Below are positions 40,499 through 62,812 of a stretch of DNA of 64,000 bases, piece after piece (the stretch's first letter is position 1; every line of letters starts with the position of its first letter). The notes beneath the pieces are model-generated. The model made no database searches, had not been told where the DNA came from, and worked only from the letters and a program-made list of their open reading frames with translations. The stretch lies in the NCBI GenBank assembly GCA_034506255.1, contig JAPDPX010000001.1, positions 372,001 through 436,000 on the forward strand. Reading direction: 5' to 3'. This DNA comes from a candidate division KSB1 bacterium (GTDB lineage Bacteria > Zhuqueibacterota > Zhuqueibacteria > Zhuqueibacterales > Zhuqueibacteraceae). The position numbers and the translations under genes are program-made.

Positions 40499-40541
40499 CC
40501 CCCCGCATCTCACTTGCACGAACACGAGAGGCGAAGCCGCC

Positions 40542-41813: not shown

Positions 41814-42247
41814 GCTTTGTTCGCCTGATCCGTGCGCGGCACTGTCGCCGTGGCCCCGGTGCAACCCTCGGTGTCATGATCCAGCACAAAAATCCTCCCG
41901 CGAAAGCGAAGTCCCACGGAAAACGTCGTTTTGCGGGAGAAAAACGTGACATCTTCGGCAAGCGGGCGATCTCATGGAGGGTTGCATGGCGGAGCGCAAG
42001 GTCTCAGTGTTGTGTGCCCACTCAAAAAGTAACTCTGAACGAGTCAACCGCCACGACTCATGCTGATTGGAATCGTGTGCGCGTCTCAGCGTGCGATGGC
42101 ACCCTCCTCCACGCCAGGTGGCGAGCCTGTCGGGGCCGGGCGGGAGGTGGGCTTGTTCCCTGCGCTTTTCTTGAGTTGGCATTGCAGCGCTGACGAATAA
42201 CGCCGTATCGTTCGAAACCCTTTGACCATTCTCCGGAGAAAAGTGGT
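41814..42247. other. Intergenic region containing a copy of a dispersed repeat
   Basis: Apart from the repeat at 41861-41970 there is no gene. A CTCCGGAGAAAAG sequence near the right end is the likely ribosome-binding site of the NapC-type gene. Confidence 0.5.
41861..41970 (-). repeat. Dispersed intergenic repeat, copy A
   Basis: This stretch aligns with the reverse complement of about 54651-54777. Shared blocks include GCAACCCTC, CGCGAAAGC / CACGAAAGC, TCCCACGGAAAA and CTTCGGCAAGCGGGCGA / CTTCGGCAAACGGGCGA. An internal CTCCCGCGAAA...TTTTGCGGGAG can form a hairpin. It is a degenerate member of a family with copies on both sides of the hydrogenase block. Confidence 0.65.
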
Positions 42248-43765: not shown

Positions 43766-44316
43766 CGTGTGGCTCCGATGGACTGAACGGTGGTTGCCGT
43801 TACCGAAGCAGCCCTGGTGGTGCGCGAGCACGGCCGGGGCTTTTGTTTTCGCAAGAAAAAGAAAAAACGTCCCCCAAATTCTCAAAAATGAAAAAATCCA
43901 ATCTTCAGATCGTCGGCTGGAGGGGAAGCGCTATTGTTTTACTGCAACTAAAGCCGGCCAGTCTTCAGCCGGGAAGTGCAGCATGCTTTTTGCAAAATGT
44001 TGTTACCATCTCTTGCAGCTTTGCTGCCCCCCTGGTTCAGGAGAAAAGGGTGGTGTGGCCAGCAGGGCGTCACGCATTCGACTGTGAGGTGTCAGCCTTG
44101 TGTTTGGAAACAGCAGTCGTCGCACAAGTGATCGGGCCTCGGCTCATGGTTTGGTCGCGAATCGCGAATGATTGTCATGTGAATGCTATGCACTTGTGCG
44201 ACGCTGCAGCTTGACGGCCGGGCAGGAGGGTAGTTCACCGGGGAATGTGCACCGGCCGGGGCGAGATACGTGTTGCCGCACCTTTTTCCACCTTCACTGA
44301 ACCAAGGGAGGTTCCT
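43766..44316. other. Intergenic region between NapC-type gene and hydrogenase operon
   Basis: The terminator at 43810-43849 occupies the left part. The rest, about 460 bases, should contain the hydrogenase promoter, but I could not identify a sigma-54 or other promoter with confidence. No gene is seen. Confidence 0.45.
43810..43849 (+). terminator. Intrinsic terminator after the NapC-type gene
   Basis: AGCCCTGGTGGTGC (43810-43823) pairs with GCACGGCCGGGGCT (43828-43841), with a GCGA loop, two G-U pairs and one mismatch. TTTTGTTTT follows. It separates the NapC-type gene from the hydrogenase operon. Confidence 0.75.
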
Positions 44317-45435
44317 ATGCCGGATTGCAATGCCACGATTTGGCAGACGATGCAGGCCAAGGGATACACCCGCCGTGAGTTCCTGAGGTTTTGCAGCTTC
44401 GCTGCCGGGCTGGCCGGGATCGAAGCCACCGGCCTGGCGCGCGTCGTTCACGCCTTCGAGAAAAAACCGAGACCTGCAGTCGTCTGGCTTCACTTTCAGG
44501 AGTGCACCTGCTGCAGCGAATCCTTCATCCGTTCCTCCCACCCGCTGGTTGCTGACATCGTGCTCGACAAACTCTCGCTGGACTACACCGAGACCCTGCA
44601 GGCCGCCGCCGGCCATCAGGCGGAAAAGTGTTTGCACGACACCATCACCAATTATGCCGGCCAATACATTCTGCTGGTCGAGGGCTCGGTGCCGATGAAG
44701 GATGACGGCGTCTACTGCATGATCGGCGGCCGCGCGGCGGAAGACATCCTGCTGGAATGCGCCAAAGAGGCCGCGGCGGTCATCGCCTGGGGCAGTTGTG
44801 CCTCCAACGGCTGCATCCAGGGTGCCAAACCCAATCCCACCAATGCCACGCCGATTCACAAAATCATCAGCAAACCCGTGATCAACGTGCCCGGCTGCCC
44901 GCCGATCGCCGATGTCATGACCGGCGTGGTGACGCATCTTCTGGTTTACGGCCGCGCACCCGCGCTCGACGGCCAGGGCCGGCCCAGGGAGTTTTACGGC
45001 CGCCGCGTGCATGATACCTGCTACCGCCGGCCGTACTATGATGCCGGTTTGTTCGTGGAAAGGTGGGACGATGAAAAAGCCCGCAAGGGCTACTGTCTCT
45101 ACAAAATGGGATGCCGCGGCCCGGTGACCTACAATGCCTGCTCCGTCACCCGCTGGAACAACGGCGTGAGCTATCCCATTCAATCCGGGCACGGCTGCAT
45201 TGGCTGCAGTGAGAACGGCTTTTGGGATAATGGGCCGTTCTACCGCCACCTGGCCAGCTTCCCGGGCTTCGGCATCGAGAGCACGGCCGACACCATTGGC
45301 ACGGTGGTGGGCGTGGCTGCCGCCGCGGGCGTCACGGCACATGCCATCGTGACCAACATCCGCAAACGCCAGCTCATCAGTGAGCACATGGAGGAATCGG
45401 TGACTGACCGCAAGGCGAAGGGAGGTGAGCGCTAA
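44317..45435 (+). CDS. hyaA: [NiFe] hydrogenase small subunit, O2-tolerant (group 1d) type
   Basis: The product is 372 residues. TRREFLRFC is a twin-arginine export signal. The proximal-cluster region has C63-T-C65-C66 and WGSCASNGC (C161, C166), plus PGC (C194). In E. coli Hyd-1 and Ralstonia MBH these six cysteines form the [4Fe-3S] cluster that gives oxygen tolerance; standard enzymes have Gly at the positions of C65 and C166. [13 protein letters not shown] and the C-terminal [19 protein letters not shown] block bind the distal and medial clusters. A C-terminal helix ([19 protein letters not shown]) anchors it to the inner membrane. It works in the periplasm, oxidising H2 with HyaB and passing electrons to HyaC. 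The stop overlaps hyaB by one base. Confidence 0.96.
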
Positions 45436-47150
45436 TGGCACGCATTGTTGTTGACCCAATCACCCGCATCGAAGGGCATTTGCGCATCGAAGCCGTGGTG
45501 GAGAACGGTCGCATCGCCGAGGCCTACAGCTCCGGCACGATGGTGCGCGGCTTCGAGAAAATTTTGAAAGGCCGCGATCCGCGCGACGCCTGGGCCTTCA
45601 CCGAACGCGCCTGCGGCGTGTGCACCACCGTGCATGCCCTCGCCAGCGTGCGCACCGTGGAAGATGCGCTCGGCATCACCGTTCCCAAAAACGCCGAGCT
45701 GATTCGCAATCTGATGTGCGGCGCGCAATATGTGCAGGATCATGTCGTGCATTTCTATCATCTCCATGCGCTGGACTGGGTGGATGTCGTGAGCGCGCTG
45801 TCCGCCGATCCCGCCGCCACCGCGAAGCTGGCGCAAAGCCTTTCCCCGTGGCCGAAAAGCTCGCCGGGTTACTTCGCCGACCTGCAAAAACGCCTGCAAA
45901 CGTTTGTGGCCAGCGGCCAGCTCGGCATTTTCGCCAACGGCTATTGGGGCCATCCCCAGTACAAACTCCCGCCGGAGGTCAACCTGATGGCCGTGGCACA
46001 CTACCTCGAAGCGCTGGAATGGCAGAAGGAAATCGTCAAGGTGCACACCATCTTCGGCGGCAAAAACCCGCATCCCAACTATCTCGTCGGCGGCGTGCCC
46101 TGTTCGATCAATCTCGATGAAGTCAATGCCATCAACACCGAGCGCTTGAATCATGTCGCCAAACTCATTGCCGATGCCATCGTCTTCGTCGAACAAGTTT
46201 ATCTGCCCGATCTGCTGGCGATTGCCGGTTTTTACAAAGACTGGGCGGCCATTGGCGGCGGCTTGACCAACTATCTCGCCTACGGCGAGTTTCCCACGCG
46301 CAGCTACAACCAGCCCGACTCCTTCAAATTTCCACGCGGTGCCATCCTCAACCGCAATTTGAACGAAGTGCACGAGGTGAATGGCCGGGACAGGGAGGAG
46401 ATCAAGGAGTACATTTCGCATTCGTGGTACAGTTACAACAACGGCGACGGCGCGGGTTTGCATCCCTGGGACGGCGAGACAGAATTCAACTTCACCGGCC
46501 CCAAGCCGCCGTTCCAGCAGCTCAATGTCGAGGGCAAGTATTCCTGGCTGAAAACGCCGCGCTGGAAAGATCATGCCATGGAAGTCGGACCACTCGCGCG
46601 CCTGCTGGTCGCCTATGCCAAAGGCGTGACCGAGGTGCGGGAGATCGTCAACGACACGTTGCACCGGCTCGCGGTGCCGGTCACCGCGCTGTTCTCCACG
46701 CTCGGACGCACCGCGGCACGCGGCCTGGAAACCAGGCTGGTTGTGCACTGGATGCAGGAGTTCTATGACGAACTGGTGGCCAATGTCAAAGCCGGTGAGA
46801 CCCGCACCTTCACCGACGAGAAATGGGATCCCGCGACCTGGCCGGAAACCTGTGAAGGGGTGGGCATGAGTGAAGCGCCGCGCGGTGCTCTGGCACACTG
46901 GATTCGCATCAAGGACAAGAAGATCGACAATTATCAACTGGTGGTGCCCAGCACCTGGAATGCCTCCCCCAAGGATCATCGTGGACAGCGCTCGGCATAT
47001 GAGGAATCGCTGCTCGGCACGCCGGTGGCCAATGTCGACCAGCCGGTGGAGATTCTCCGCACGATTCATTCCTTCGATCCGTGCATCGCGTGCGCCGTGC
47101 ATCTCTATGATCCCGCCGGCCGGCAGGTTCACCGGGTGAAATTTTATTGA
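45435..47150 (+). CDS. hyaB: [NiFe] hydrogenase large subunit
   Basis: The product is 571 residues. The active-site ligands are in RACGVC (C60, C63) and DPCIAC (C550, C553). The N terminus [16 protein letters not shown] and the [16 protein letters not shown] block are standard for group 1 enzymes. A 15-residue tail after H556 (CAVH followed by [15 protein letters not shown]) is the extension removed by the maturation protease once Ni is inserted. It is exported with the small subunit through Tat. GGAGGTGAGC precedes the start. Confidence 0.97.
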
Positions 47151-47160
47151 GGAGGCGGCC

Positions 47161-47856
47161 ATGGCAACGACCTCAACCGGGGTGGCTTATCGCCGCGTCT
47201 ACGTCTGGCAGCTCCCGGTGCGTTTCTATCACTGGCTCAATGCCCTGTGCGTTGCGGTGTTGATCGTCACCGGCTATCTGATCGGCAACCCGCTGGCCAT
47301 TTCCTATTCCACCGAGGCCTACCAGCAGTATTGGTTCGGCACGGTGCGCTTCGTGCATTTCGTCGCCGCTTTCATCTTCTTTTTCAACTTCATGGTGCGC
47401 ATCTACTGGGGCTTCGTTGGCAACCAATACGCGCGCTGGGAGAATTTCATCCCGTTCCGCAAGGCGCAATGGCGGGAGATCCTCGAAGTGCTGAAGGTGG
47501 ATGTGCTGCAGGCGAAGATCAAGGGCCTGATCTCCATCGGCCACAACGCGCTTGCCGGCGTCACCTACTTTCTGTCGTTTCTCGCGTTTCTGTTTCAGTC
47601 ACTCACCGGTTTTGCGCTGTATTCCAGCATGAGTGACTCGTTCTTTCCGCGGCTGTTTGCCTGGATTGTGCCGTTGATGGGGGGCGACTTTGCGGTGAGG
47701 CAGTGGCATCACCTGTTCCTGTGGTTTTTCGTGGTGTTCATCATCGTTCACATGTATCTGGTGTTCTACCACGATTACATCGAGGGCCGCGGCACCACTT
47801 CCTCGATGGTGGGAGGATGGAAGTTTGAGCGGGAGGACGTGTTCCGTGAACAATAA
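47161..47856 (+). CDS. hyaC: Ni/Fe-hydrogenase b-type cytochrome subunit
   Basis: This 231-residue membrane protein starts ten bases after hyaB with GAGGAGG upstream. It opens VYVWQLPVRFYHWLNALCV, has FVHFVAAFIFFFNFMVRIYW, GHNALAGVTYFLSFLAFLFQSLTGF and WHHLFLWFFVVFIIVHMYLVFYHDY, typical of HyaC/HupC/HoxZ, in which paired histidines hold two b hemes. It anchors the periplasmic dimer and passes electrons from H2 to the quinone pool. This makes the hydrogenase a quinone-reducing uptake enzyme and links it to the quinol-oxidising modules upstream. Confidence 0.95.
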   Translation: MATTSTGVAYRRVYVWQLPVRFYHWLNALCVAVLIVTGYLIGNPLAISYSTEAYQQYWFGTVRFVHFVAAFIFFFNFMVRIYWGFVGNQYARWENFIPFRKAQWREILEVLKVDVLQAKIKGLISIGHNALAGVTYFLSFLAFLFQSLTGFALYSSMSDSFFPRLFAWIVPLMGGDFAVRQWHHLFLWFFVVFIIVHMYLVFYHDYIEGRGTTSSMVGGWKFEREDVFREQ

Positions 47857-47923
47857 CCAGTTGTCAGTGGTCAGTTTTCCGTGTGACAACACTGACTGAT
47901 TCCTGAAAACCCGGATAAAGCAG

Positions 47924-48397
47924 ATGCCGGCATTCAACCACGCGAGTGCGCCGAAGGTACTGATTCTCGGCATCGGCAACGTGCTGCTGGGCGATGAGGG
48001 CATTGGCGTGCATGTGGTGCAGCATCTGCAAAACATGCCGCTGCCGGAGGGCGTGGCATGTTTGGACGGTGGCACCGGCAGTTTCAACCTGCTCGAGCCG
48101 ATGCAACAAGCCGGGAAAGTGATTCTGATCGACGCCATCATGGATGGCGCGCCGGCGGGGACGGTACGCCGCCACCGTCCCCGCTTTTCCCAAGACTATC
48201 CGCGCACGCTCACGGCGCACGACATTGGACTGAAAGATTTGTTGGATGCGTTTTATCTGCTCGGCAATCCGCCGGAAGTGATTTTGTATGCCGTGTCCAT
48301 TTCGGCATTGCAGGGGGTGGGGACGGAGCTGTCACCGGAGCTGGCGACGGTCATACCGCAAGTGGCGCAGCTAGTCCTTGCCGAGAGTGCGTCTTGA
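47924..48397 (+). CDS. hyaD: Hydrogenase maturation endopeptidase
   Basis: The product is 157 residues. VLILGIGNVLLGDEGIGVH contains the nickel-sensing Glu, CLDGGTGSFNL the Asp, and TLTAHDIGLKDLL the His of HyaD/HybD/HupD peptidases. It cleaves the C-terminal extension of HyaB after Ni incorporation, in the cytoplasm. It lies directly after the structural genes, as in other group 1 operons. Confidence 0.94.
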   Translation: MPAFNHASAPKVLILGIGNVLLGDEGIGVHVVQHLQNMPLPEGVACLDGGTGSFNLLEPMQQAGKVILIDAIMDGAPAGTVRRHRPRFSQDYPRTLTAHDIGLKDLLDAFYLLGNPPEVILYAVSISALQGVGTELSPELATVIPQVAQLVLAESAS

Positions 48398-48479
48398 AAG
48401 CAGCGGCTTGTAGGGCATCCCGGCACCGCTTCACGCCCCGCTGCCATACTCGCGTCATCAGCAAAACAAGGAAACCCTG

Positions 48480-48824
48480 ATGCACGAACTTTCGATTGCC
48501 ACCGCCATTGTTGAAACCGTTTTGCAGGAAATGCAGCGCCGGCAACTGCCGGCCGTGTCGGCCGTCGGCGTGCGCGTGGGTGCGCTGAGCGGCGTGGTCC
48601 CGGATGCGTTGGAATTCAGCTTCCAGGCCATCATCAACGGCACGCCGCTGGCCGGTGCCCGGTTGGCGATCGAACAGGTGCCGCTGCAGGGCAAATGCCG
48701 GAATTGCGGTTTGGATTTTTCAGTGCAGGAGTTTATTTTCGCCTGCCCTGACTGCCATTCGGGGCAAATCGAAATCACCCGGGGGGAGGAGTTGGAGATT
48801 GCGTATTTGGAAGTGAGTTCATAG
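48480..48824 (+). CDS. hypA: Hydrogenase nickel-insertion protein HypA
   Basis: The product is 114 residues and opens MHELSIATAIVETV, with the Ni-binding His2. A zinc ribbon follows, with CRNC and CPDC pairs separated by about 24 residues. HypA delivers Ni to the large subunit together with HypB. It starts 82 bases after hyaD. Confidence 0.95.
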   Translation: MHELSIATAIVETVLQEMQRRQLPAVSAVGVRVGALSGVVPDALEFSFQAIINGTPLAGARLAIEQVPLQGKCRNCGLDFSVQEFIFACPDCHSGQIEITRGEELEIAYLEVSS

Positions 48825-48909
48825 TTGCGCCTTCAGGCACAGTTGCGTCATGAACGCTTTGTCCCGGCAAGGACGACTGCGAACCGTTTTCAATTCAATC
48901 GACAAGAGC

Positions 48910-49599
48910 ATGACTGAAAAAATCGCCGTTGAGAAAAAGGTCCTCTCTGAAAATGACAAGCTCGCCGCCGAGGTTCGCAGCCAGTTGATGCGACACGGCG
49001 TGGTGGCGCTCAATCTGGTCAGCTCCCCCGGCTCGGGCAAGACCAGTCTGCTGGAAAGGACGCTGGCGGAGTTAAATCAGGAACTGCGCCTGGGTTTGAT
49101 TGCCGGTGATGTGCAGACGGAGAATGATGCCGACCGTTTGAAACGTGCCGGCGGCAGGCTGGTGCAGCCGATAGTGACCGGCGGTTTGTGCCATCTCGAT
49201 GCCAAAATGATCACGCGCGTGCTGCCGCAATTCGATCTGGCGCAGCTCGATCTGCTGTTCATTGAGAATGTCGGCAACCTGGTTTGTCCGTCGAGTTATG
49301 ATCTCGGGGAGGACATGAAAGTCGTGCTCATCAGCACCACCGAGGGCGATGACAAACCGCTGAAGTATCCCGCCATGTTTCGACGGGCCAAAGTGATGGT
49401 GATCAACAAAATCGATCTGCTCGGCACCTCCGATTTCGACCTCGAGCGGGCCAAGGCGAATGCCCGTCGCATCAATGCCGATCTCGAGATTTTTGAGGTC
49501 TCCTGTCGCACCGGCGCCGGCCTGCGCGCCTGGTTTGACTGGCTGCGCGGGCTGGTGCACGGCCCGGCGCGCGCAGTGCCACCGACCATGGGAGCATAA
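48910..49599 (+). CDS. hypB: Hydrogenase nickel-insertion GTPase HypB
   Basis: The product is 229 residues. I chose ATG 48910 because HypB proteins typically begin a few residues before KIAVEKKVLSENDKLA; an upstream ATG at 48850 would add twenty residues of no family character. The P-loop is SSPGSGKTSLLE. ENVGNLVCPSSYDLGED contains the metal-binding Cys of the GTPase domain, and NKIDLL is the guanine-specificity motif. There is neither an N-terminal CxxCGC nor a His-rich stretch, so it lacks the nickel-storage function of some HypBs. The next gene starts one base after its stop. Confidence 0.95.
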   Translation: MTEKIAVEKKVLSENDKLAAEVRSQLMRHGVVALNLVSSPGSGKTSLLERTLAELNQELRLGLIAGDVQTENDADRLKRAGGRLVQPIVTGGLCHLDAKMITRVLPQFDLAQLDLLFIENVGNLVCPSSYDLGEDMKVVLISTTEGDDKPLKYPAMFRRAKVMVINKIDLLGTSDFDLERAKANARRINADLEIFEVSCRTGAGLRAWFDWLRGLVHGPARAVPPTMGA

Positions 49600-49600
49600 C

Positions 49601-51877
49601 TTGCTGCGTCGCGAACGCATTCACATTTCCGGCATCGTGCAGGGTGTTGGTTTCCGCCCCTTTGTTTACCGCCTGGCCCAGCAGTGCGGTCTGGGCGGTT
49701 TTGTGAGCAACAACACCGAAGGTGTGCTGATCGAGGCCGAGGGTGCGGCTGCCGCGCTGCAGGAATTTCGTGCCCGCCTGGCACGGGAGGCGCCGCCCGC
49801 CGCGCGCATCGTCCGGCTCGAGGTGGCGGAAATAGCCCCGGCCGGCGAAGTCGATTTCAAAATCGTTGCCAGCCGGCGTGACCGTCCGGCGCAGGCCTTC
49901 ATCTCCCCCGATCTCGCGCTCTGCGCCGATTGCCGCGCGGAACTGTTCGATCCGCAAAACCGCCGCTTTCATTACCCTTTCATCAATTGCACCAATTGCG
50001 GGCCGCGCTACACCATCGTGCGTGGCATTCCCTATGACCGGCCCAACACCTCGATGAGCGTGTTTGCGATGTGTGCTGCCTGTGCGGCGGAGTATCACGA
50101 TCCCGCCAACCGCCGCTTTCACGCGCAGCCCAATGCCTGCCCGCAATGCGGGCCGCGCCTGTGGCTGTGTGACCGCCACGGCACGCGGCTGGCGGAGGCC
50201 GGGGCGCTGGCACAGGCGGTCGTGCAATTGCAGCAGGGCGCCATCGTTGCCATTCGCGGCTTGGGCGGCTTTCACCTCGCGGTGGATGCCCGCAATGAAT
50301 CCGCGGTGCAGGCGCTGCGGCGGCGCAAGGGCCGCGCTGAAAAACCGTTTGCGATGATGGCGCGCGACCTGGCCACCCTCGAAAAATTTTGTTTCGTTTC
50401 GCCGCTGGAACAGGCCATGTTGCAGCAACCCACCCGGCCCATCGTTCTGCTGCGGCGTCGTGACTGCAACCAGCTTGCCGCCGCGGTGGCGCCACACCAG
50501 AAATATTTCGGCTTCATGCTGCCCTACACCCCGCTGCATGAGTTGTTGCTGCACGACCACTTCGAGGCGCTGGTGATGACCAGCGGCAATTTCAGCGAGG
50601 AGCCGATTGCCATCTCCAATGAGGAGGCGCTCGCGCGCCTGGCGGCGCTGGCGGATTTCTTTCTGCTGCACGATCGCGAGATTCTGCAGCGCTGCGACGA
50701 TTCCATTGTGCGCTGTGCCGCCGGCCGGCCGCGACTGCTCCGCCGCGCGCGCGGCCACGTCCCCCAGCCGGTGTTCCTGCCACGCGCGACACGGCGCCGT
50801 GTGCTGGCGTGTGGCGGAGAATTGAAAAACACCATTGCCCTCTCGCGCGGCAATGCGGTTTTTCTCAGCCAGCACATTGGCGATCTCGACAATCCCGCGG
50901 CGTTTGCTTTTTTTGAAAACAGCATCGCACATCTGCAGCGCATCCTCGAGATCGTTCCGGAGTTGATCGCGTATGATTTGCATCCGGAGTATCTCTCCAC
51001 CAAGTGGGCGGTGCAGCAGGAGCATCTGCCGCGCGTCGGAGTGCAGCATCATCATGCACATCTCGCAGCGGTGATGGCCGACAACGGCGTGACGGAAAAA
51101 ACCATTGGGCTGATTCTGGACGGCACCGGCTATGGCAGCGATGGCACGATCTGGGGCGGGGAGGTGCTCATCGGCGATGCGGCCGCCTGCCAGCGCTTTG
51201 CTTATTTGCAGCCGGTTGTCATGCCGGGCGGCACGGCCGCGATCCGGCAGCCCTGGCGCATGGCGTTGAGCTATTTGGCGGCGACTTTCGGCAGCAACCT
51301 CGGGCAGTTGTCGCTGCCTTTTTTGCAGCAGCTGCGCGGGGAGGCCGTGCAGGTGGTGCTGCAGATGATCGACAAAAACATCAACTCGCCGCTCACCTCC
51401 AGTTGCGGCCGGCTGTTCGACGGTGTGGCGGCGCTGCTCGGGCTGCGTCAGGAGGTGAATTATGAAGCCCAGGCCGCCATCGAACTGGAAATGCTGGCGG
51501 ACGAAGGGCAGCAGGATTTTTATTCTGACGCGGTGCGTTCCGCCGGCGCCGGCGCGCTTCCCCTCACGCCGGTGGTCGCCGCCGTGGTGGAGGAATTGCA
51601 AAACCATGTGCCGCGTGAAAAAATCGCGGCGCGCTTTCATCATACGATGGCCGAATTGTTCGTGCGCGCGGCCTGCGCCGCACGGGAGCTGACGGGTATC
51701 GCGCGCGTCGGCCTGAGCGGCGGCGTGTATCAAAACACTCTCTTTTTTCACCGCATGACAGCGCGGCTGCAGGCGGAAGGCTTCGAGGTTTTGAGCCATC
51801 AGCAAGTGCCCACCAATGACGGCGGCCTGGCGCTCGGGCAGGTTGTGATTGCCGACGCGCTGGCCGGTCAAAATTGA
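49601..51877 (+). CDS. hypF: Carbamoyltransferase HypF
   Basis: The product is 758 residues from TTG 49601, immediately after the hypB stop; no ATG fits better. Domains in order: acylphosphatase (HISGIVQGVGFRPFVYRLA), two zinc fingers with CADC, CTNC, CAAC and CPQC pairs (about 105-185), a YrdC-like domain (IVAIRGLGGFHLAVDA; RPIVLLRR), and a Kae1-like domain (VLACGGELKNTIAL; HHHAHLAAVMADN; LSGGVYQN). HypF makes the carbamoyl group from carbamoyl phosphate and ATP and loads it on HypE, the first step of cyanide ligand synthesis. Confidence 0.96.
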   Translation: MLRRERIHISGIVQGVGFRPFVYRLAQQCGLGGFVSNNTEGVLIEAEGAAAALQEFRARLAREAPPAARIVRLEVAEIAPAGEVDFKIVASRRDRPAQAFISPDLALCADCRAELFDPQNRRFHYPFINCTNCGPRYTIVRGIPYDRPNTSMSVFAMCAACAAEYHDPANRRFHAQPNACPQCGPRLWLCDRHGTRLAEAGALAQAVVQLQQGAIVAIRGLGGFHLAVDARNESAVQALRRRKGRAEKPFAMMARDLATLEKFCFVSPLEQAMLQQPTRPIVLLRRRDCNQLAAAVAPHQKYFGFMLPYTPLHELLLHDHFEALVMTSGNFSEEPIAISNEEALARLAALADFFLLHDREILQRCDDSIVRCAAGRPRLLRRARGHVPQPVFLPRATRRRVLACGGELKNTIALSRGNAVFLSQHIGDLDNPAAFAFFENSIAHLQRILEIVPELIAYDLHPEYLSTKWAVQQEHLPRVGVQHHHAHLAAVMADNGVTEKTIGLILDGTGYGSDGTIWGGEVLIGDAAACQRFAYLQPVVMPGGTAAIRQPWRMALSYLAATFGSNLGQLSLPFLQQLRGEAVQVVLQMIDKNINSPLTSSCGRLFDGVAALLGLRQEVNYEAQAAIELEMLADEGQQDFYSDAVRSAGAGALPLTPVVAAVVEELQNHVPREKIAARFHHTMAELFVRAACAARELTGIARVGLSGGVYQNTLFFHRMTARLQAEGFEVLSHQQVPTNDGGLALGQVVIADALAGQN

Positions 51878-51893
51878 ACAGGGAGTCTGCCCT

Positions 51894-52178
51894 ATGTGTC
51901 TGGCCATCCCCGGAAAGGTCATCGCCATCTACGAGCAGAACGGCCTGAAAATGGGCCGCCTGGATTACGCCGGCACGGTGAACACCGCCTGCCTGGAATA
52001 CGTGCCGGATGTCCAAATTGGACAATATGCACTGGTGCATGCCGGATTTGCGATCAGCGTGCTCGATGAAGAGGAAGCGCGCAAAACCTATGCGGTGTGG
52101 GATGAGCTGGTGCGGGCCGCGGCGGAGGAGGGCACCGACATCTTCGGCATGCCGTTCGAAAAATCGCCGCCAGGCTGA
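51894..52178 (+). CDS. hypC: Hydrogenase assembly chaperone HypC
   Basis: The product is 94 residues. It opens MCLAIPGKVIAI with the essential Cys2 that binds iron with HypD and later the large subunit precursor. GRLDYAGTVNTACLEYVPDVQIGQYALVHAGFAIS follows the family pattern (the last part is the OB-like barrel). It carries the Fe(CN)2CO unit. It starts 16 bases after hypF. The following 140-base gap has no gene. Confidence 0.95.
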   Translation: MCLAIPGKVIAIYEQNGLKMGRLDYAGTVNTACLEYVPDVQIGQYALVHAGFAISVLDEEEARKTYAVWDELVRAAAEEGTDIFGMPFEKSPPG

Positions 52179-52319
52179 GTCCGCCACCAAGCCTTTCCTG
52201 CAGCGACACGGGAGGTTGACAACGCGCCTTCGGGCAACGCCGGGCGGGGTGCACGTTTTTGCTGACGTGGGTTGCCTTGCGCTTGCGACAGGGCTTTCAA
52301 AACAAACAAGAGGCCGGGC

Positions 52320-53456
52320 ATGAAATATCTCGAAGAATACCGCAAACCCGAAATCGTGCGGCATTTGGTGCAGGAGATCCGCGCAATCACCACACGGCCG
52401 TGGATGATCATGGAGGTGTGCGGCGGCCAGACGCATTCCATCCTCAAAAACGGCATCGATCAAATTCTGCCCAAAGAGATCGAGCTGGTGCACGGCCCCG
52501 GCTGCCCGGTGTGCGTGACCCCGCTGGAACAGATCGACAAGGCGCTGGCCATCGCCCGCCGGCCCGAAGTGATTTTCACCTCCTTTGGCGACATGCTGCG
52601 CGTGCCGGGCTCGCGCGAGGATTTGTTCATGGTGAAATCCGCGGGCGGTGATGTGCGCGTGGTTTATTCGCCGCTCGATGCCGTCCAGCTTGCCCGCGAG
52701 AATCCCCACCGGCATGTGGTCTTCTTCGCGGTGGGCTTCGAGACCACGGCGCCCAACAATGCCATGGCGGTCTGGCAGGCGCATCGCGAAGGTCTGCGCA
52801 ATTTTTCGATTTTGGTTTCGCATGTGCTGGTGCCGCCGGCGATGAAAGCCCTGCTGTCGTCACCCCGCAACCGCGTGCAGGGTTATCTCGCCGCCGGGCA
52901 CGTCTGCACGGTGATGGGGTGGGAGGAATACGAGCCGATTGCGGCGCAGTATCATGTGCCCATCGTGGTGACCGGTTTCGAGCCGGTGGACATTCTCGAA
53001 GGCGTCCTGATGACGGTGCGGCAACTGGAACGCGGGGAGGCGCGCGTGGAAAACCAGTACTCGCGCGTGGTGCGCCGCGAGGGCAACCGGCCGGCGCAGG
53101 AGTTGATTCGCAAAGTCTTTGAAATCGCCCCGCGCAAATGGCGCGGCATCGGCGAGATCCCGGCGAGCGGCCTGCGGCTGCGGCCGGAGTTTCGCGCCTA
53201 CGATGCCGAGGTCATCTTCGATCTCGGCGAGCTGCAGGTCGAAGAACCGGCCATTTGCATCAGCGGTCTGGTGTTGCAAGGCTTGAAGAAGCCCGACGAA
53301 TGCCCCGCCTTCGGCCGGCAATGTACACCGCAAACGCCGCTGGGCGCCACCATGGTATCCTCTGAGGGCGCCTGCGCGGCGTACTTTGCCTATCACCGCC
53401 AGAGAGCGGAAGAAGTGCGGGAGGGCGCAGAAGCGGGAAAGGCAGCAGACGCATGA
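52320..53456 (+). CDS. hypD: Hydrogenase Fe(CN)2CO assembly protein HypD
   Basis: The product is 378 residues. [10 protein letters not shown] (Cys of the thiol redox site), [11 protein letters not shown] (CxxC), and the C-terminal [15 protein letters not shown] with [10 protein letters not shown] (the [4Fe-4S] ligands) are intact. HypD builds the Fe(CN)2CO unit with HypC and HypE. It is the only iron-sulfur protein of the maturation set and should be cytoplasmic. The next gene begins 15 bases later. Confidence 0.96.
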
Positions 53457-53471
53457 AGCGGAGCCACTGGC

Positions 53472-54521
53472 ATGAGTGAGTTCAATCTGCAATGCCCATT
53501 GCCGATCTCGCAGCACGACACCATCCAGCTTGGTCACGGCAGCGGCGGCAAGATGATGAATGATCTGATCGCCAGGCTGTTCTTGTGGGCCTTCGAAAAT
53601 CCCTACTTGAACAAGCGCGATGACCAGGCCGTGGTCGAGATCAACGGTGTGCGGCTGGCGGTCAGCACGGATTCTTTCGTTGTCGATCCGATTTTTTTTC
53701 CGGGTGGCGATATCGGCGAGCTGGCGGTTTATGGCACGGTGAACGACGTGTGCATGAGCGGCGGCCGGCCGCTGTTTCTTGCGGCCAGTGTGATATTGGA
53801 GGAAGGTTTTCCCCTGGCAGATCTGCGCCGGGTGGTCGAGTCCATGGCCGCCGCCGCCCGCCGCACCGGCGTGATGATCGTGACCGGCGACACCAAAGTC
53901 GTCAACAAGGGCAAGGGCGACAAGATTTTCATCAACACCACCGGCATCGGCGTGGTCGAGCATCCCTGGCAGATTTCCGCCGGCCTAATCCGGCCCGGGG
54001 ATCTCGTGCTGCTCAGCGGCAGCCTGGGTGATCATGGCATTGCCATCCTTTCGCGGCGGGAAGGGCTGGCTTTCGAAACGCCGGTGACAAGCGATACGGC
54101 GCCACTGCATGAACTGGTGGCGGCGGTGGTGCAGGCCGGCGGCGAGGCGGTGCATGCGCTGCGTGATCCGACGCGTGGCGGGCTGGCTGCCACGTTGAAC
54201 GAGTTTGCCGCGACCGCACAGGTGGGCATTCGCATTCGTGAAGATCGTATTCCTCTAAAACCCGCGGTCGCCGGTGCTTGTGAGATTTTGGGATTGGATC
54301 CGCTTTACGTCGCCAATGAAGGCAAGCTGGTGGCGGTGGTTGCCGCGGCCCGTGCACAAGAAGTGTTGCGTGTCATGCGGGCGCACCCGCTTGGCCGGGA
54401 AGCGGCTCTCATCGGCGAAGTGGTCGCCGACCGCCCCGGCCTGGTCACGATGCAAACCCGGTTGGGTAGCTGGCGCATGGTCGATATGCTGGTGGGCGAA
54501 CAATTACCGCGGATTTGTTGA
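53472..54521 (+). CDS. hypE: Carbamoyl dehydratase HypE
   Basis: The product is 349 residues. It opens with QLGHGSGGKMMNDLI, and its fold is that of PurM-like ATP-binding proteins (DQAVVEINGVRLAVSTDSFVV; GTVNDVCMSGGRP). It ends in LPRIC, whose terminal cysteine receives the carbamoyl group from HypF and is dehydrated to thiocyanate. It completes the set hypA, B, F, C, D, E in one strand-consistent unit. Confidence 0.96.
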   Translation: MSEFNLQCPLPISQHDTIQLGHGSGGKMMNDLIARLFLWAFENPYLNKRDDQAVVEINGVRLAVSTDSFVVDPIFFPGGDIGELAVYGTVNDVCMSGGRPLFLAASVILEEGFPLADLRRVVESMAAAARRTGVMIVTGDTKVVNKGKGDKIFINTTGIGVVEHPWQISAGLIRPGDLVLLSGSLGDHGIAILSRREGLAFETPVTSDTAPLHELVAAVVQAGGEAVHALRDPTRGGLAATLNEFAATAQVGIRIREDRIPLKPAVAGACEILGLDPLYVANEGKLVAVVAAARAQEVLRVMRAHPLGREAALIGEVVADRPGLVTMQTRLGSWRMVDMLVGEQLPRIC

Positions 54522-56822: not shown

Positions 56823-57141
56823 AAAAGGCGTTGTTAATCGGGGCTCTCGCATATTCGGGAAAATTTTCCTCACCTTTCCCAAGATTGAAAAATGCATCCC
56901 TTGCTTCTTAGTTCTTGTCAGCTAAAAATTAATGAGTTATGCCATCGGTTGGATCGCGATTGGAAGAATCTTGCGGGCACAGGTCTTGCGAGTTTCGAGT
57001 TGCAAACTTGTCAACAAGCGTGACCAACCTTCTCTTTTGTGGAAAGGAGGTGCATGCCTCTCCCACACATTTCCCGCACCACAGTTGTGGTTCCTGGTTT
57101 CCAGTTGCAGGTGTAGTGAGATGTTTTGACTGGAGGTGGTT

Positions 57142-59919
57142 ATGAGAAGAGTGCTAAAGATTGGCGCCGAATTCTCAGTTGTCCTGATGGTGCTGGCCCG
57201 GCTTGCCTTTGCCCAGGCGCCGACTGCCACCATCAAGGTCGAAGGTTACAGTCCACAGGAGATTCACGATCTGGGGTGGACCTCGCCGCGTTCGACCGGC
57301 CTTCCGGTAGTCGGAGTGGGGCAGGTGGTTTACTTGCTGGGTAACGCCGGGGCAACCTCGTGGGCGTGGACGTTGAAGTCCAAGCCGGCAGGCTCTGTCG
57401 CCACGCTCGACAGCACCAACAAACGGCAGACTACATTCAAACCGGATGTGGTGGGGAAGTTTACGATCGAGCTGGTGATCACGACAGCCGCCGGCACAAG
57501 TGCGCCTGCCAGTGTGACCATTACTTCCGCCAAGTTTGTCGGCGTTGGCGGCATGGATGGCCTGCCGCGGGAGTTCCCGCAGTGTGCTCTTTGCCACAGC
57601 GGCAATTTCGATGCCTGGAGCAAGACCGGCCATGCGACGTTTTTCTCCCAGGCGATTGACGGCAAGGAGAGCAGCCACTATCGCGAATCCTGCATCGAGT
57701 GCCACACTGTCGGTTATGACACCGCCCTTGCTGCCGTCAACGATGGTTTTGATGATGTCGCGCGGGAGTTGGGCTGGGTTTTTCCGGCGGTGCTGCAGCC
57801 GGGCAATTGGGAGGCGATGAAGACGAATTATCCCAAACTGGCGGCGCGCGCCAACATTCAGTGTGAAAGCTGCCACGGCCCAGGCAGCGAACACAAGGGC
57901 GACAAGACCGCAATCGCCATGAGCCTGGATGAGGCCGCGTGTGGCTATTGCCATGATGAAGAGCCGTACCATCGCATCAGCCAGCAATGGAAAAACTCGG
58001 TGCACGGCATTCTCAATCCGACCTTTGAAAGTGTTGCCAACCGGCCGGCCTCTTCCGGCTGTGCCAAGTGCCATTCCGGCTGGGGTTTCATTCGCCGCAT
58101 CGATCCCAAAAGCCCTGATACGCGGCCGGAGAACGGCTTCTCGCAGATAAGCTGTGCGGTGTGCCACGACCCGCACCGCTCGGAAAGTCTGCCACACATG
58201 GTGCGCAGCTTGAATGACGTGCAACTCGGCGACACCACCACTGTGGTCAAGTACGGCGGCATGGGCAAAGTCTGTATGCAGTGCCATATCAGCCGGCGGG
58301 ATGCGGAAGACTATGTGAACAACCCGGCCAACCTCGGCATTTATTTCGGCCCGCATTACAGCAACCAGGCTGACATGATCGATGGCTCGAACGCGATCGA
58401 GTACGGCATTCCGATCGGCAGCTCGGGCCACAAGTTCGCGATCGCCGATGCCTGCGTCACCTGCCATATGGCGGAAACCCCGGCGGCGGGACAACCCGGG
58501 CATGACAAAATCGGCGGCCATACCTTTGCCATGGAAGCCGATGGCGTCCAAAATGTGGCCGTCTGCCAGCAGTGCCATGGCCCGATCAAGTCTTTCGATG
58601 ACATCATGGCCAAAGCCGACTACGACGAAGACGGCACCATCGAAAGCACGCGCCATGAGATTGAAGGCCTGCTGCACAAGCTGGATGAGTTGTTGCCGCC
58701 CAATTCGACCACCGCGGAAGTCAATGCCAACTACAAGTGGGAGGCCAGCATGACGCCGGCCGAAATTCAGCGGCGCCAGATGTTGACCAAAGCCTGGTAC
58801 AACTTCCGCTTCGTCGAGGAAGATCGCAGCATGGGTGTGCACAACGCCGGCTACGCCATTGCCCTGTTGCGGCGTTCGATTGCCACGCTCACCAGCGGTG
58901 ATATCGGCGCCGGCAAGATCCTCTCGATCAAGGATATTCCGCAGGATCAGGGCAAGCAGGTGCGCGTCTCCTGGTCGAAATTTGCCGCGGATGCACCCGC
59001 CGCCACCAATGCGGTGACGAGCTACTCGGTGTGGCGCCGTGTTGATGACCCGGGCAATGCGCTCGGTGTAAAAGTCGGTTCCAGGCAGGAGATGCTCGCT
59101 GCGGCTTCGACGGCAAAGCCGGGCAGCCGCTTCACCGTCAACCAATTCGGCACCTGGGATTTTGTGGCGTGGCTGCCGGCCACCGGCTACGAGATGTACA
59201 GTGTGGTGGCACCGACTTTGTATGACAGCACGGCCGCGGGCATGCACTGGTCGGTGTTTTTTGTTTCCGGCCAGGCGCGCAATGTGGTCTATGAAACCGC
59301 GCCCGACAGTGGCTATTCCGTGGACAACCTGGCGCCCTTCGCGCCCGGTAATGTCACGGCCAGCGTGGTGGACCGCAAGGTGAGTCTGAGCTGGGACGAT
59401 CCCGTTGACGCCGACTTTCAGTATTTCGCGATCTATCGCAGCACCATCCCCGGCTTTGATCCGAAAGGCACCACACCGATCAAGACACTGACCGGCACCA
59501 CCTATCTCGATAGCGAGGTCACTGCCGGCCAGAATTACTACTATCGTCTCTCCGCCTTCGACTTCTCCGGCAATGAGAGTGCGTTCTCCGCGGAGTTGCC
59601 GGTCTCAATCACCGGCGTCGACGATCACAGCGGTGTTCCGACGGTGTTTGCCCTGCAGCAGAATTATCCCAACCCGTTCAACCCCGAAACCTCGATCCAG
59701 TATCACCTGCCGACACCCGGCCACGTGCGTCTGGTGATTTACTCCTCGCTCGGCCAGCAGGTGCGGCGCCTGGTGGATCGCTTCCAGCCGGCGGCGTATC
59801 ACGTCGTCGTGTGGGACGGCCGGGATGACGCCGGGAATCTGCTGCCTTCCGGTGTCTACTTCTATCGCATCACCGCCGGCAACTTCACGGCGATGAAGAA
59901 GATGGTCATGATGAAATAG
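57142..59919 (+). CDS. Nonaheme cytochrome c with Ig-like, FnIII-like and T9SS sorting domains
   Basis: The product is 925 residues, with GGAGG five bases before the ATG. Signal peptide (GAEFSVVLMVLARLAFA), then an Ig/PKD-like domain (ATSWAWTLKSKPAGSVATL; about 25-130). Nine CxxCH sites occupy residues 148-479: CALCH, CIECH, CESCH, CGYCH, CAKCH, CAVCH, CMQCH, CVTCH and CQQCH. A helical part follows, then an FnIII-like domain near 731-825 (APGNVTASVVDRKVSLSW). From residue 836 a type A T9SS sorting domain (FALQQNYPNPFNPETSIQY to TAMKKMVMMK) ends the protein. The heme part resembles c554-like multihemes. The architecture predicts secretion or surface attachment of a redox protein, suitable for contact with extracellular acceptors or other cells. 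Confidence 0.92.
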   Translation: MRRVLKIGAEFSVVLMVLARLAFAQAPTATIKVEGYSPQEIHDLGWTSPRSTGLPVVGVGQVVYLLGNAGATSWAWTLKSKPAGSVATLDSTNKRQTTFKPDVVGKFTIELVITTAAGTSAPASVTITSAKFVGVGGMDGLPREFPQCALCHSGNFDAWSKTGHATFFSQAIDGKESSHYRESCIECHTVGYDTALAAVNDGFDDVARELGWVFPAVLQPGNWEAMKTNYPKLAARANIQCESCHGPGSEHKGDKTAIAMSLDEAACGYCHDEEPYHRISQQWKNSVHGILNPTFESVANRPASSGCAKCHSGWGFIRRIDPKSPDTRPENGFSQISCAVCHDPHRSESLPHMVRSLNDVQLGDTTTVVKYGGMGKVCMQCHISRRDAEDYVNNPANLGIYFGPHYSNQADMIDGSNAIEYGIPIGSSGHKFAIADACVTCHMAETPAAGQPGHDKIGGHTFAMEADGVQNVAVCQQCHGPIKSFDDIMAKADYDEDGTIESTRHEIEGLLHKLDELLPPNSTTAEVNANYKWEASMTPAEIQRRQMLTKAWYNFRFVEEDRSMGVHNAGYAIALLRRSIATLTSGDIGAGKILSIKDIPQDQGKQVRVSWSKFAADAPAATNAVTSYSVWRRVDDPGNALGVKVGSRQEMLAAASTAKPGSRFTVNQFGTWDFVAWLPATGYEMYSVVAPTLYDSTAAGMHWSVFFVSGQARNVVYETAPDSGYSVDNLAPFAPGNVTASVVDRKVSLSWDDPVDADFQYFAIYRSTIPGFDPKGTTPIKTLTGTTYLDSEVTAGQNYYYRLSAFDFSGNESAFSAELPVSITGVDDHSGVPTVFALQQNYPNPFNPETSIQYHLPTPGHVRLVIYSSLGQQVRRLVDRFQPAAYHVVVWDGRDDAGNLLPSGVYFYRITAGNFTAMKKMVMMK

Positions 59920-60278
59920 GGTCAGTTGACCTGATCGGAAGCACGCTTGTCGGCCAACTGATCGCCGGCAAGGGCACCATGCCCGGGAAGTGCTGTGCCG
60001 CCGGTCAGTCGTTGTTTGATTCAGTGGCTGCGTTCTTGTGGCAAACAAGGACGCAGCTATTCTTTTGTGGGGGGTGTGCTGTTTAACGGCACGCGGGCGG
60101 CGGCTGGCCGATGAGATGCTTGCTTTCAGCGGGAAAATTCGCTATGATTTGTTTGCTCTCTTGGCTGTCGCACTGCAATAAAACGATCCGCCTGTGTGCG
60201 CCCCCGCACCGGCCGCAGGCACGGTTTGCCCCTCCCCTAGCTAAAATATTGCAGTCTCATTATGAGAAAGGCGGCTTC
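59920..60278. other. Intergenic region with terminator
   Basis: The terminator at 60027-60066 divides this gap. The right part should contain the promoter of the barrel/14-heme operon; AGCTAAAATATTGCAG near 60240 is AT-rich and GAGAAAGGCGG precedes the start. No gene is seen. Confidence 0.5.
60027..60066 (+). terminator. Intrinsic terminator after the T9SS cytochrome gene
   Basis: GCTGCGTTCTTGT (60027-60039) pairs with ACAAGGACGCAGC (60045-60057) with one G-U pair and a five-base loop. TATTCTTTT follows. It makes the T9SS cytochrome a separate transcription unit from the porin/14-heme pair. Confidence 0.78.
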
Positions 60279-61577
60279 ATGATACGACGAAAGCTATGGT
60301 GGCAGTGGTGGATGCTGGCCGCAATCTTTCCTGCCGCGCTGAGCGCGCAAACTTTTTCCGGGCGTCTGACCAGTTCTTTTTATGTCTACGAGCGCAGTGA
60401 TTCGCTGGCGGTGGACTCGGGACATGCGCGCGCCTATCAGACGTTTCAGTTTGATCTCAGCGGAAAGAACGTGGCGTTGCGCTCCTATGGCCAGCTCGAT
60501 CGCGATTTCAGCACGCGCCTGGCGGGCGACGGAAAAGTACGGCTTTCCCATCTCGCGCTGGAATTCAAAAACCTGGGCCGGCAGGTCGATCTGCAGGTGG
60601 GCCGTCAGCCGGTGTTCAGCGGTGTGGCGGCGGGCACTATTGACGGCGTGCAAATCAAAGTGCGCGCCGGCCGCCAGTTGCGCTTCAAGGCTTTTGGCGG
60701 CGGCCTGCTGCCCCACGACCAGCGCATGCAGCTCATCGCCGATCCCGACAGGAACTACATGGCCGGCGGCCAGATGGTGTGGCGGCCCAAAAGCGATTTC
60801 AATCTCAGTCTGAGCTTTTTTGAAAAGCGGCAATTGCGGCCCGGCTACGATGCTCTGCGCGCCGATTCGATCGGCAATGTTTTCACACAATACCTCTCAC
60901 CCGTTGATCGCGCCTATCGCATGGCCTCGCTCGATGGCTCCTGGTTCGTCAATCCCCAAACATCGTTCTATGGCCGCAGCGATTTTAATTTTCACGCCAA
61001 AGCAATCACCCGTGCCGAACTCGCCGGCCGCTCACAGGTCACACCCCGGTTGTCCCTGACGGCAAATTACATCTTTCGTTCCCCGCATCTGCCCTGGAAT
61101 TCGCTGTTCGCCGTCTTCAATGTCAAAGACAACCATGAACTCGAAGGCGGGTTCTATTATGAGCATCGTCCGGCACTGCGATTCTACGGCAACGTCGCCG
61201 GCATTTTTTATGAAGGCGAGCAATCCTACCGCGTGACGGCCGGCACCGATTTGAAATACGGCGGGGTGAACTACGTGCACCGCAGCGGCTATGCCGGCAA
61301 TCTTGACGGCGTGAATGCCACGCTCTATTATCCCACCCGCAGCGGTCTGTTGCTGCCCAGCCTGCAGCTCTCCTGGGCTTCATACAAATTGGAGGGGGGT
61401 GCCGGCGCACGGGAATCGCTTTACTCCGGAGCCGCAGGGCTGCTGGTTCGCCCCTGGAACCGCCTCACCCTCGACGGCCAGGTGCAGATGCTGCATAATC
61501 GCTACTATTCCAACGACGTCCGGTTGCTGTTTCGCATGCAATACTGGTTCTTCACCAGGCAGGGGGCGTCATCATGA
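60279..61577 (+). CDS. Outer-membrane beta-barrel, probable porin of a porin-cytochrome conduit
   Basis: The product is 432 residues, chosen from ATG 60279, which gives a signal peptide (WWMLAAIFPAALSA). The rest alternates polar and hydrophobic residues in strands typical of barrels: TFSGRLTSSFYVYE, LRSYGQLDRDF, VDLQVGRQPVFSG, ANYIFRSP, HELEGGFYYEHRP, and a last strand VRLLFRMQYWFF with terminal aromatic residues. No heme site is present. Its stop overlaps the start of a 14-heme cytochrome gene (ATGA), so the two are translationally coupled. This matches the MtrB/MtrA-type design, in which a barrel sheathes a multiheme wire across the outer membrane. I infer that role from context; direct similarity to MtrB is not evident by eye. 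Confidence 0.75.
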   Translation: MIRRKLWWQWWMLAAIFPAALSAQTFSGRLTSSFYVYERSDSLAVDSGHARAYQTFQFDLSGKNVALRSYGQLDRDFSTRLAGDGKVRLSHLALEFKNLGRQVDLQVGRQPVFSGVAAGTIDGVQIKVRAGRQLRFKAFGGGLLPHDQRMQLIADPDRNYMAGGQMVWRPKSDFNLSLSFFEKRQLRPGYDALRADSIGNVFTQYLSPVDRAYRMASLDGSWFVNPQTSFYGRSDFNFHAKAITRAELAGRSQVTPRLSLTANYIFRSPHLPWNSLFAVFNVKDNHELEGGFYYEHRPALRFYGNVAGIFYEGEQSYRVTAGTDLKYGGVNYVHRSGYAGNLDGVNATLYYPTRSGLLLPSLQLSWASYKLEGGAGARESLYSGAAGLLVRPWNRLTLDGQVQMLHNRYYSNDVRLLFRMQYWFFTRQGASS

Positions 61578-62812
61578 GGAGGAAGGAGCATTCACTTATG
61601 CACGGGCGTACATGGTTCGTTCTGCCAGGTTTGCTGGCGGGAGTGCTGGGCGTTTTGACGCTGGCATGGGCATGGAGCGGGCCGCCTGCCTCGTGGGATG
61701 ATCCCGTCGCGCAATGGGGCAGAATCAAATTTTCGCACCGGAAACACGTCGCGGAAGCGGGAGCGGAATGCAGCGCCTGCCATGCCGCGGCCACCACCAG
61801 CGAAAAAGCCGGGGACCTGCTGTTCCCGAAACATGCGGAATGCGGCACCTGCCATGCCGAGGTGGAGAGCGCCAACACCGACGATTGCAAGTTCTGCCAT
61901 GTCGATGTTGACCGTCTCGAGGCTTATGCCGCCCCTGCACGACTCGACATCGTGTTCAGCCACAAGCAACATGTCGAAGGACAGAAGCTCGAATGTGCCG
62001 CCTGCCATGCCGGTGTGGAAAAATCGGAAAAGCCGAGCGTGGCCCATCTCCCGACCATGGCCTCCTGCTACACCTGCCACAACGACGTGCAGGCAAGCAA
62101 CGCCTGCGAGGCCTGCCATCCGCGGGTGGAGACCATGCTGCCGTTGAGCCATCGCGCGCCGGATTGGGCCAAACAACACAAGCGCCTGATCCGCGCCGAT
62201 CACACCAGCAGTGATTGTGCCGTTTGCCACACGGATAATTTTTGCCAGACCTGCCATGCCGAGGTGACGCTGCGGCTCACGCGCGGCGATCTCCGCCGCA
62301 GCCTGGCGGAGAACCGGCCGGCACCCTCCGGCAGGGACCCGCTGGTCAAACAGAACGTGCACGAGCTGAATTATCTCTTCTCGCACAGCCTCGATTTGCG
62401 CGCCAAACAATCCGATTGCTATTCATGCCACAATCAGCAAACTTTCTGCGCCGACTGTCACAGTCGCAATCAAGATGCCGGCTTCGCCGCGCCGTTCCCG
62501 CTCTCGCATCGCGCGCCCGATTTCGTTCGCATCGGCACGGGCAGCGGTGGCGGCCAGCATGCCACCCTGGCGCGCCGTGATATTGAAGCATGTGCCGCCT
62601 GTCATGACGTTGAAGGTCGCGATCCGGTTTGCCTCATCTGCCATGTCGACCGCACCCCGGGCCGCGGCAATGATCCCAAAACGCATCCGGCCAATTTTCG
62701 CAACGAGGAAGGCGACTGGCATTCCAATGCCGGCTCCACCTGCTACAATTGTCACACCAACACCGAAAAGGCGGGAATTGGTTTCTGTGGTTATTGTCAT
62801 GGCATGAAGTGA
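61574..62812 (+). CDS. 14-heme periplasmic cytochrome c (MtrA-like role)
   Basis: The product is 412 residues. The N-terminal hydrophobic segment (FVLPGLLAGVLGVLTLAWAW) is a signal peptide or anchor. Fourteen CxxCH sites run from CSACH (residue 66) to CGYCH at the C terminus, and distal histidines appear in repeats such as IKFSHRKHV and IVFSHKQHVEG, typical of c3/c7-type modules (FSHxxH before CxxCH). Geobacter and Shewanella conduits use 8- to 12-heme proteins in this position. The start overlaps the barrel gene stop by four bases, strong evidence for joint production. Confidence 0.9.
   Translation: MRRKEHSLMHGRTWFVLPGLLAGVLGVLTLAWAWSGPPASWDDPVAQWGRIKFSHRKHVAEAGAECSACHAAATTSEKAGDLLFPKHAECGTCHAEVESANTDDCKFCHVDVDRLEAYAAPARLDIVFSHKQHVEGQKLECAACHAGVEKSEKPSVAHLPTMASCYTCHNDVQASNACEACHPRVETMLPLSHRAPDWAKQHKRLIRADHTSSDCAVCHTDNFCQTCHAEVTLRLTRGDLRRSLAENRPAPSGRDPLVKQNVHELNYLFSHSLDLRAKQSDCYSCHNQQTFCADCHSRNQDAGFAAPFPLSHRAPDFVRIGTGSGGGQHATLARRDIEACAACHDVEGRDPVCLICHVDRTPGRGNDPKTHPANFRNEEGDWHSNAGSTCYNCHTNTEKAGIGFCGYCHGMK

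Follow-up and report, generated by a model that had tools for sequence, protein, structure and literature searches.

A gene for a nine-heme cytochrome c with a C-terminal sorting domain for the type IX secretion system (T9SS) lies at 57142..59919 on the forward strand of a 64,000-nucleotide stretch of DNA, hereafter the window, from a candidate division KSB1 bacterium (GenBank assembly GCA_034506255.1, contig JAPDPX010000001.1, positions 372,001 to 436,000). The encoded protein joins a T9SS sorting tail to a heme core related to OcwA, the nonaheme cell-surface terminal reductase of Thermincola potens described in the available passages of PMC6703420. From its sequence it is probably a protein that is exported by the T9SS, anchored at the cell surface and there acts as the terminal electron-exchange partner of a likely outer-membrane conduit encoded beside it. 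What is observed in this regard are the features of the sequence, its kinship with OcwA, its conservation among homologues, the genes that occur together with it, and a genome that encodes SprA, PorU and PorV.

The best-studied Gram-negative surface cytochromes leave the cell as type II-secreted lipoproteins or as filaments. If T9SS display is correct, large and mostly uncultured groups of the Fibrobacteres–Chlorobi–Bacteroidetes (FCB) assemblage would own a separate way of making a redox-active surface, and a many-cofactor protein would leave through SprA after heme attachment, a hard test of how folded a T9SS cargo can be. OcwA-type nonahemes of Gram-negative bacteria are already placed in a tree in the available part of PMC7829351, and papers describing the genomes of Caldithrix abyssi and Melioribacter roseus, in the passages available, name T9SS-type tails and multiheme cytochromes separately. 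No description of a T9SS-exported cytochrome was found in the literature searched (listings and passages, the broadest lists in their upper rows, with subscription journals and preprints outside the scope), and the passages available from PMC11475568 held no match for secretion, taxon-name or barrel terms. The protein would therefore be a surface reductase of a kind already known, sent out by a route for which that literature gave no description.

The nonaheme protein and its heme core

The reading frame is uninterrupted, as the initial annotation had it, being open from a GTG at 57136 or an ATG at 57142 through to 59919. The ATG is the better start, since a Shine–Dalgarno-like GGAGGT can be read ahead of it at 57132..57137 (forward strand) and the alignments of homologues begin there. 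The protein has 925 residues from the ATG and 927 from the GTG; domain boundaries below follow the 927-residue numbering, and CxxCH positions that of the initial annotation. The N-terminus is hydrophobic and ends in AFAQA (judged by eye, with no signal-peptide predictor), with a helix at residues 2–24 of the predicted model. Thereafter, all on the forward strand, come a beta-rich domain resembling immunoglobulin or polycystic kidney disease domains in the model (residues ~30–130, 57223..57525; a Pfam match to PF22352 at 73–130 is weak and below cut-off), the OcwA-type core with its nine CxxCH motifs and C-terminal helices (131–586, 57526..58893), two fibronectin type III (FnIII)-like domains placed by structural alignment with VIA-align (591–828, 58906..59619) and the type A sorting domain (844–924, 59665..59907). 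The arrangement of Ig-like and FnIII-like domains around the hemes that was first proposed is thus found again in the model, and the structure prediction suggested for the heme domain gives a helical core of the OcwA type.

The CxxCH motifs start at residues 148, 184, 241, 267, 307, 338, 378, 438 and 475, the last ending at 479, and this recount reproduces the positions first reported; the 18 cysteines of the whole protein amount to two per motif. A chance origin is ruled out, in that 20,000 residue shuffles gave 19,802 sequences without CxxCH, 196 with one, two with two and none with more. Besides the motifs, nine further histidines are conserved, which is also the number of hemes. These are kept in 88–100% of 112 listed homologues of FCB type and in 95–100% of 117 listed homologues of a second group, of Planctomycetes–Verrucomicrobia–Chlamydiae (PVC) type and called here the L110 group after one of its loci; H279 is conserved in 88% and 95% of the two groups, respectively, and H407 in 100% of both.

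Both a profile search and the structural alignment of the predicted model place OcwA (PDB 6I5B) as the closest solved relative, instead of the MtrC/OmcA and OmcS/OmcZ proteins with which the cytochrome was initially compared. The shared fold covers the heme core and the helix bundle, and what is shared comprises nine hemes, the order of c554-like and NrfA-like parts within the core, and the C-terminal bundle; the profile search relates the core to NrfA and c554 as well. OcwA differs in its Gram-positive host and in stopping after the helix bundle, where the nonaheme continues with FnIII domains and a T9SS tail. The second profile match, C-terminal helices included, is PDB 6qvm, which we take to be OmhA of Carboxydothermus ferrireducens or a close relative. 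OmhA is not known to be a T9SS cargo. OmhA differs from the nonaheme in having 11 hemes and a Gram-positive host; its surface location and a link to Fe(III) are given in the available part of PMC7829351. A surface role is likewise predicted for the nonaheme, as for OcwA (PMC6703420, passages available). The same passages describe hemes 2 and 5 of OcwA as open at their distal sites, under His–His pairs, in a protein that nevertheless holds enough histidines for all its hemes. Opposite these pairs the profile alignment sets Y278-H279 (first pair) and F404-G405 (second) of the nonaheme, coordination itself being unreadable from sequence, and the match of positions assumes, by our own reckoning, a shift of 29 between the chain index and the numbers of the paper.

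Membership of the MtrC/OmcA decaheme family (TIGR03507) was considered and ruled out, the score being 27.9 bits against a cut-off of 209.3, the hemes nine and not ten, and OcwA the better relative; the broader Pfam model PF22113 (MtrC/MtrF domains II/IV) does match, scoring 51.5 where its cut-off is 30. Residues 149–276 (window 57580–57963) also give 61 bits with the NCBIfam model NF041198 ('UshA-like (seleno)protein'), far short of its cut-off of 275, and this sub-threshold match recurs in all 28 members of the homologue set A3 described below.

The sorting domain and the secretion machinery

The type A sorting domain initially proposed is borne out by the NCBIfam model TIGR04183, which matches residues 844–924 at 36.7 bits against a curated cut-off of 23. 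The same model matches 26 of the 28 proteins in set A3 (the window protein and 27 read from sampled genomes), and the two without a match are those truncated by contig edges, so that the tail is missing from them. NPFNP is invariant across the 91 rows of alignment A1 (the window protein with 90 of the 120 listed homologues).

The window's own genome (5.96 Mb in 20 contigs, reported 100% complete) encodes several of the components that export of such a protein would call for. SprA is matched in pieces of 365, 340 and 202 bits (cut-off 200) within a single 2191-residue frame, PorU scores 890 bits against a cut-off of 420, and the PorV family has 22 matches over cut-off, one with an in-frame stop, which is far more than the one or two PorV-family proteins usually carried by Bacteroidota. 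Cytochrome c assembly is represented by three PF01578 matches over cut-off, again one with an in-frame stop. The initial annotation had looked to the porK–porP, sov/sprA and porU genes as those on which the export would depend; sprA and porU are present over cut-off, and porP and porK are found only below it. What is held in common with the T9SS type A cargo of Bacteroidota is thus the C-terminal TIGR04183 domain together with SprA, PorU and PorV in the genome, and what differs is that the cargo here is a multiheme cytochrome and that the PorL/PorM motor is unrecognised by the GldL and GldM models.

At least 150 TIGR04183 tails occur in this genome (150 of 177 candidates scored). Their frames (in one, C8:148687, a stop cuts the reading short) lack CxxCH in 146 cases and have a single motif in one; the remaining three have seven, eight and nine, the last being the window protein. 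In the seven-motif protein (L244:1995-5102, on G000:C4, tail at 571970) there is in addition a domain of ethylbenzene-dehydrogenase type (PF09459, 83.6 bits). The motifs of the eight-motif protein (L254:164-1546, on G000:C5, tail at 368523) are of the c7 type; TIGR04183 is over cut-off in both proteins. With two more T9SS-tailed multihemes in the same genome, the nonaheme is no lone oddity.

Conservation and proposed exchange of the C-terminal module

A protein search gave 1113 homologues, the best 120 of which were listed, and the sources among the matches listed are candidate division KSB1, Calditrichaeota, Deferribacteres, Rhodothermia/Rhodothermales and 'bacterium'; several of these proteins are annotated merely as 'T9SS type A sorting domain-containing protein'. 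Among the 112 of the 120 that have at least 850 residues, nine CxxCH motifs are found in 102 and eight in ten, and NPFN[PA]x[ST] occurs close to the C-terminal end of 110. In A1 all CxxCH motifs are invariant, except that the first cysteine of heme 1 is only nearly so, and it is heme 1 that is altered or reads CxxxCH in the eight-motif rows of A3. At the level of genomes, 28 of 60 sampled (the window's own included), from 11 of 12 sampled families, have a match better than 1e-80 that reaches into the heme core; 28 regions were fetched from 27 of these genomes, G005, where the gene is split over two contigs, being left out. In other words, the union of cytochrome and T9SS tail that was first noticed in a single sequence is widely conserved in FCB-type bacteria.

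A contig scan with A1 returned 80 rows that were not used for counts, most of them being other T9SS proteins because one of the two search words was the common NPFN tail; ten rows were scanned for hemes, and two of these, L110 and L111, were taken into the family. L111, from an Ignavibacteriae bacterium, has nine CxxCH motifs and a TIGR04183 match of 45.7 bits. Matches confined to the C-terminal half (residues 588–927, in proteins of ~1090 residues) were rejected as nonahemes, since the tail-bearing frames at the fetched loci lack CxxCH and are thus other T9SS cargo.

A search with the more distant L110 homologue gave 698 proteins, the names among the best 120 listed being Kiritimatiellia, Verrucomicrobia, Pontiellaceae, one 'Clostridia bacterium' and 'bacterium'. 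Comparing the listed proteins of at least 700 residues, 117 in each group, the L110 group has nine CxxCH motifs in 113 and eight in four, the PNPF tail motif in none and thrombospondin type 3 (TSP3)-like calcium repeats near the end in 99, whereas the window group has the tail motif in 115 and the TSP3 pattern in none. TIGR04183 was not matched in the six L110-group proteins given to NCBIfam. A quick tree of the heme core, excluding the tail (77 rows: the 28 of A3, L111, 18 of the window group and 30 of the L110 group), places a single change of tail type on a branch with SH-aLRT support of 99, with L111 on a long branch. From the counts and the tree, the core comes with two kinds of C-terminal module, one per group, and we read this as favouring a tail that works as an address. 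At L110:8878-13372 two nonahemes stand in tandem. Where a T9SS tail would be, the first, a complete one, carries TSP3 repeats, and it closes with an FFRV-like C-terminal ending found also in 62 of the 117 listed L110-group relatives; this ending may be another export tag.

A broader proposal, on which we are evenly divided, is that the T9SS serves across the FCB as a general export route for heme-loaded cytochromes, that the OcwA-type nonaheme has been re-addressed between phyla by a swap of its C-terminus (a T9SS tail in the FCB; TSP3 repeats and another tail in Kiritimatiellota/Verrucomicrobia), and that in the FCB it caps a distinct porin–cytochrome conduit whose barrel, of 22 strands, is unclassified. 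The swap of tails would illustrate how a surface reductase may be moved between export systems.

Four proteins with seven hemes lie near the nonaheme in other lineages (L081:13559-15517, L085:4043-7126, L066:12027-13964 and L090:7257-9071); the nonaheme profile finds the first three of them at 1e-40 or better, and a T9SS tail in common may account for these matches.

A candidate conduit and its proposed electron supply

Directly downstream of the nonaheme, unremarked in the initial annotation, are three genes on the forward strand that suggest a passage across the outer membrane. At 60279..61577 is a predicted plug-less beta-barrel, a candidate conduit porin, whose model has 22 strands of at least 10 residues; a 14-heme cytochrome of c7/nanowire type, predicted to be periplasmic, follows at 61574..62812, its gene overlapping that of the barrel by 4 bases; and a multiheme lipoprotein (lipobox LLTAC) begins at 63068 and leaves the window at 64000, its complete copy at L074:8068-9450 having 12 CxxCH motifs. 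An outer-membrane barrel gene adjoins multiheme cytochromes in porin–cytochrome complexes too, and with MtrCAB and the other such complexes of Shewanella and Geobacter the set shares a barrel, a periplasmic multiheme and outer multihemes. It differs from them in a barrel that neither Pfam nor NCBIfam recognises, with 22 predicted strands, and in a terminal cytochrome of the OcwA type with a T9SS tail. Barrel sequences were aligned as A2, with 66 rows from 70 homologues, and among PDB sequences the barrel has no match better than E 0.9. Clusters resembling OmbB and MtrB porin–cytochrome types are reported in Ignavibacteria in the available part of PMC7399161, and the available part of PMC8258643 has an unclassified barrel-plus-multiheme cluster in a Bacteroidetes metagenome-assembled genome.

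Upstream, at 31610..54521 (forward strand), profile matches and heme counts give a cytochrome b, multiheme cytochromes, a [NiFe] hydrogenase (44245–47150, forward strand) and hyp maturation genes; the region includes 4-heme, 11-heme, 19-heme/cytochrome b561 and 9-heme proteins and a 6-heme NapC-type protein. A relative of this 6-heme protein is encoded close to the nonaheme in five of the 28 regions (L077, L082, L083, where a contig end truncates it, L086 and L091), and it is this adjacency that ties the upstream chain and the nonaheme set together.

From these observations we infer how the nonaheme would be loaded with heme, exported and anchored, its electron path and direction, and its natural partner. 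The chain would pass the inner membrane by Sec, using its N-terminal leader, and receive its hemes in the periplasm from the cytochrome c assembly system; SprA with PorV would then move it out, and PorU would remove the tail or exchange it for an anchor. Electrons from the cytochrome b, NapC-type protein and hydrogenase of the inner membrane would run through periplasmic multihemes to the 14-heme cytochrome, inside or under the barrel, then to the lipoprotein and so to the nonaheme, which would hand them to minerals, humics, electrodes or other cells, or take them up in reverse. The gene set would also be a searchable signature for electroactive bacteria that searches based on MtrB or MtrC would miss.

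Alternative readings

Several results weigh against a T9SS-exported nonaheme capping an adjacent conduit. In a Foldseek search with the whole nonaheme model, the 50 printed rows are all FnIII-containing proteins and OcwA is absent, for which reason the heme core was judged by VIA-align and by sequence profile. The second model for the sorting domain, PF18962, scores 22.2 bits, under its Pfam cut-off of 27, so that the assignment of the tail rests on TIGR04183 and on conservation. In the machinery, PorP falls under cut-off, as do GldK/PorK-like matches, which occur also in unrelated controls and may reflect just a shared enzyme domain; the GldL and GldM models for a PorL/PorM-type motor have no match in the window's genome, but as no positive control was matched and GldL was also unmatched in nine genomes, this null result is uninformative in either direction (the GldL and GldK tests elsewhere used the genomes of L111, L116, L117, L120, L129, L147, L171 and L183). 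With regard to the conduit, a terminator-like hairpin of 17 pairs (60023..60061, forward strand) parts the nonaheme gene from that of the barrel, such sites being no commoner than chance (five found, against 3.7 +/- 1.7 in shuffles). The best fold matches of the barrel are TonB-dependent receptors, porins and ushers, with MtrB absent from the printed rows, and one of its 70 homologues (P0177) has a precomputed label of PF04453, presumably an LptD-type domain. Furthermore, 13 of 28 genomes do not have the two genes close together, the barrel being on another contig in 11 and not found in two, and it is present in 14 of the 32 genomes without a nonaheme, several of the barrel matches on both sides being remote (E 1e-11 to 1e-24).

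The location could be otherwise, the nonaheme being periplasmic and its tail a leftover or another kind of beta-domain. It is in keeping with this that the C-terminus is also touched by an FlgD-like model, over its cut-off, and by CHU_C, below its own, alongside the shortfall of PF18962, but we consider it very improbable given the TIGR04183 score and its recurrence in every A3 homologue whose tail is not cut off by a contig end, the invariant NPFNP of A1, the absence of the tail motif from the listed L110 group, and a genome that holds SprA, PorU and PorV.

If export by the T9SS is accepted, function may still be read differently. The kinship of the core to NrfA and c554, together with the slow reduction of nitrite by OcwA and its action on hydroxylamine (PMC6703420, passages available), would suit an extracellular oxyanion enzyme, with nitrite, hydroxylamine or something else as its substrate at NrfA/c554-like heme pockets, in place of a relay to solid acceptors. 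This appears unlikely, in that the same passages put the nitrite turnover of OcwA at only 1 per minute, that the module is rich in conduit-type cytochromes and that the nine conserved non-motif histidines could supply a sixth ligand to each heme, although OcwA, with histidines enough, still has open hemes. Nor do we favour a physiological direction, at the same site and with the same machinery, of electron uptake from Fe(II), a cathode or a partner cell: multiheme conduits are able to run both ways, and the neighbouring genes are compatible with uptake, but a [NiFe] hydrogenase, cytochrome b and NapC-type protein are more easily read as a donor chain. The reading preferred here is a T9SS-displayed nonaheme that serves as terminal electron-exchange cytochrome at the outer end of a porin–cytochrome conduit.

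Other features of the window

Two further features lie upstream in the window. Between 10987 and 25869 (G000:C1:382987-397869) there is a run of eight TIGR04183 tails whose frames lack CxxCH. The part of the upstream redox region from 35743 to 47150 contains, besides the [NiFe] hydrogenase, a frame joining 19 CxxCH motifs with a cytochrome b561 domain, the cytochrome b and the NapC-type 6-heme protein, and as such has the appearance of a hydrogenase-linked multiheme chain.
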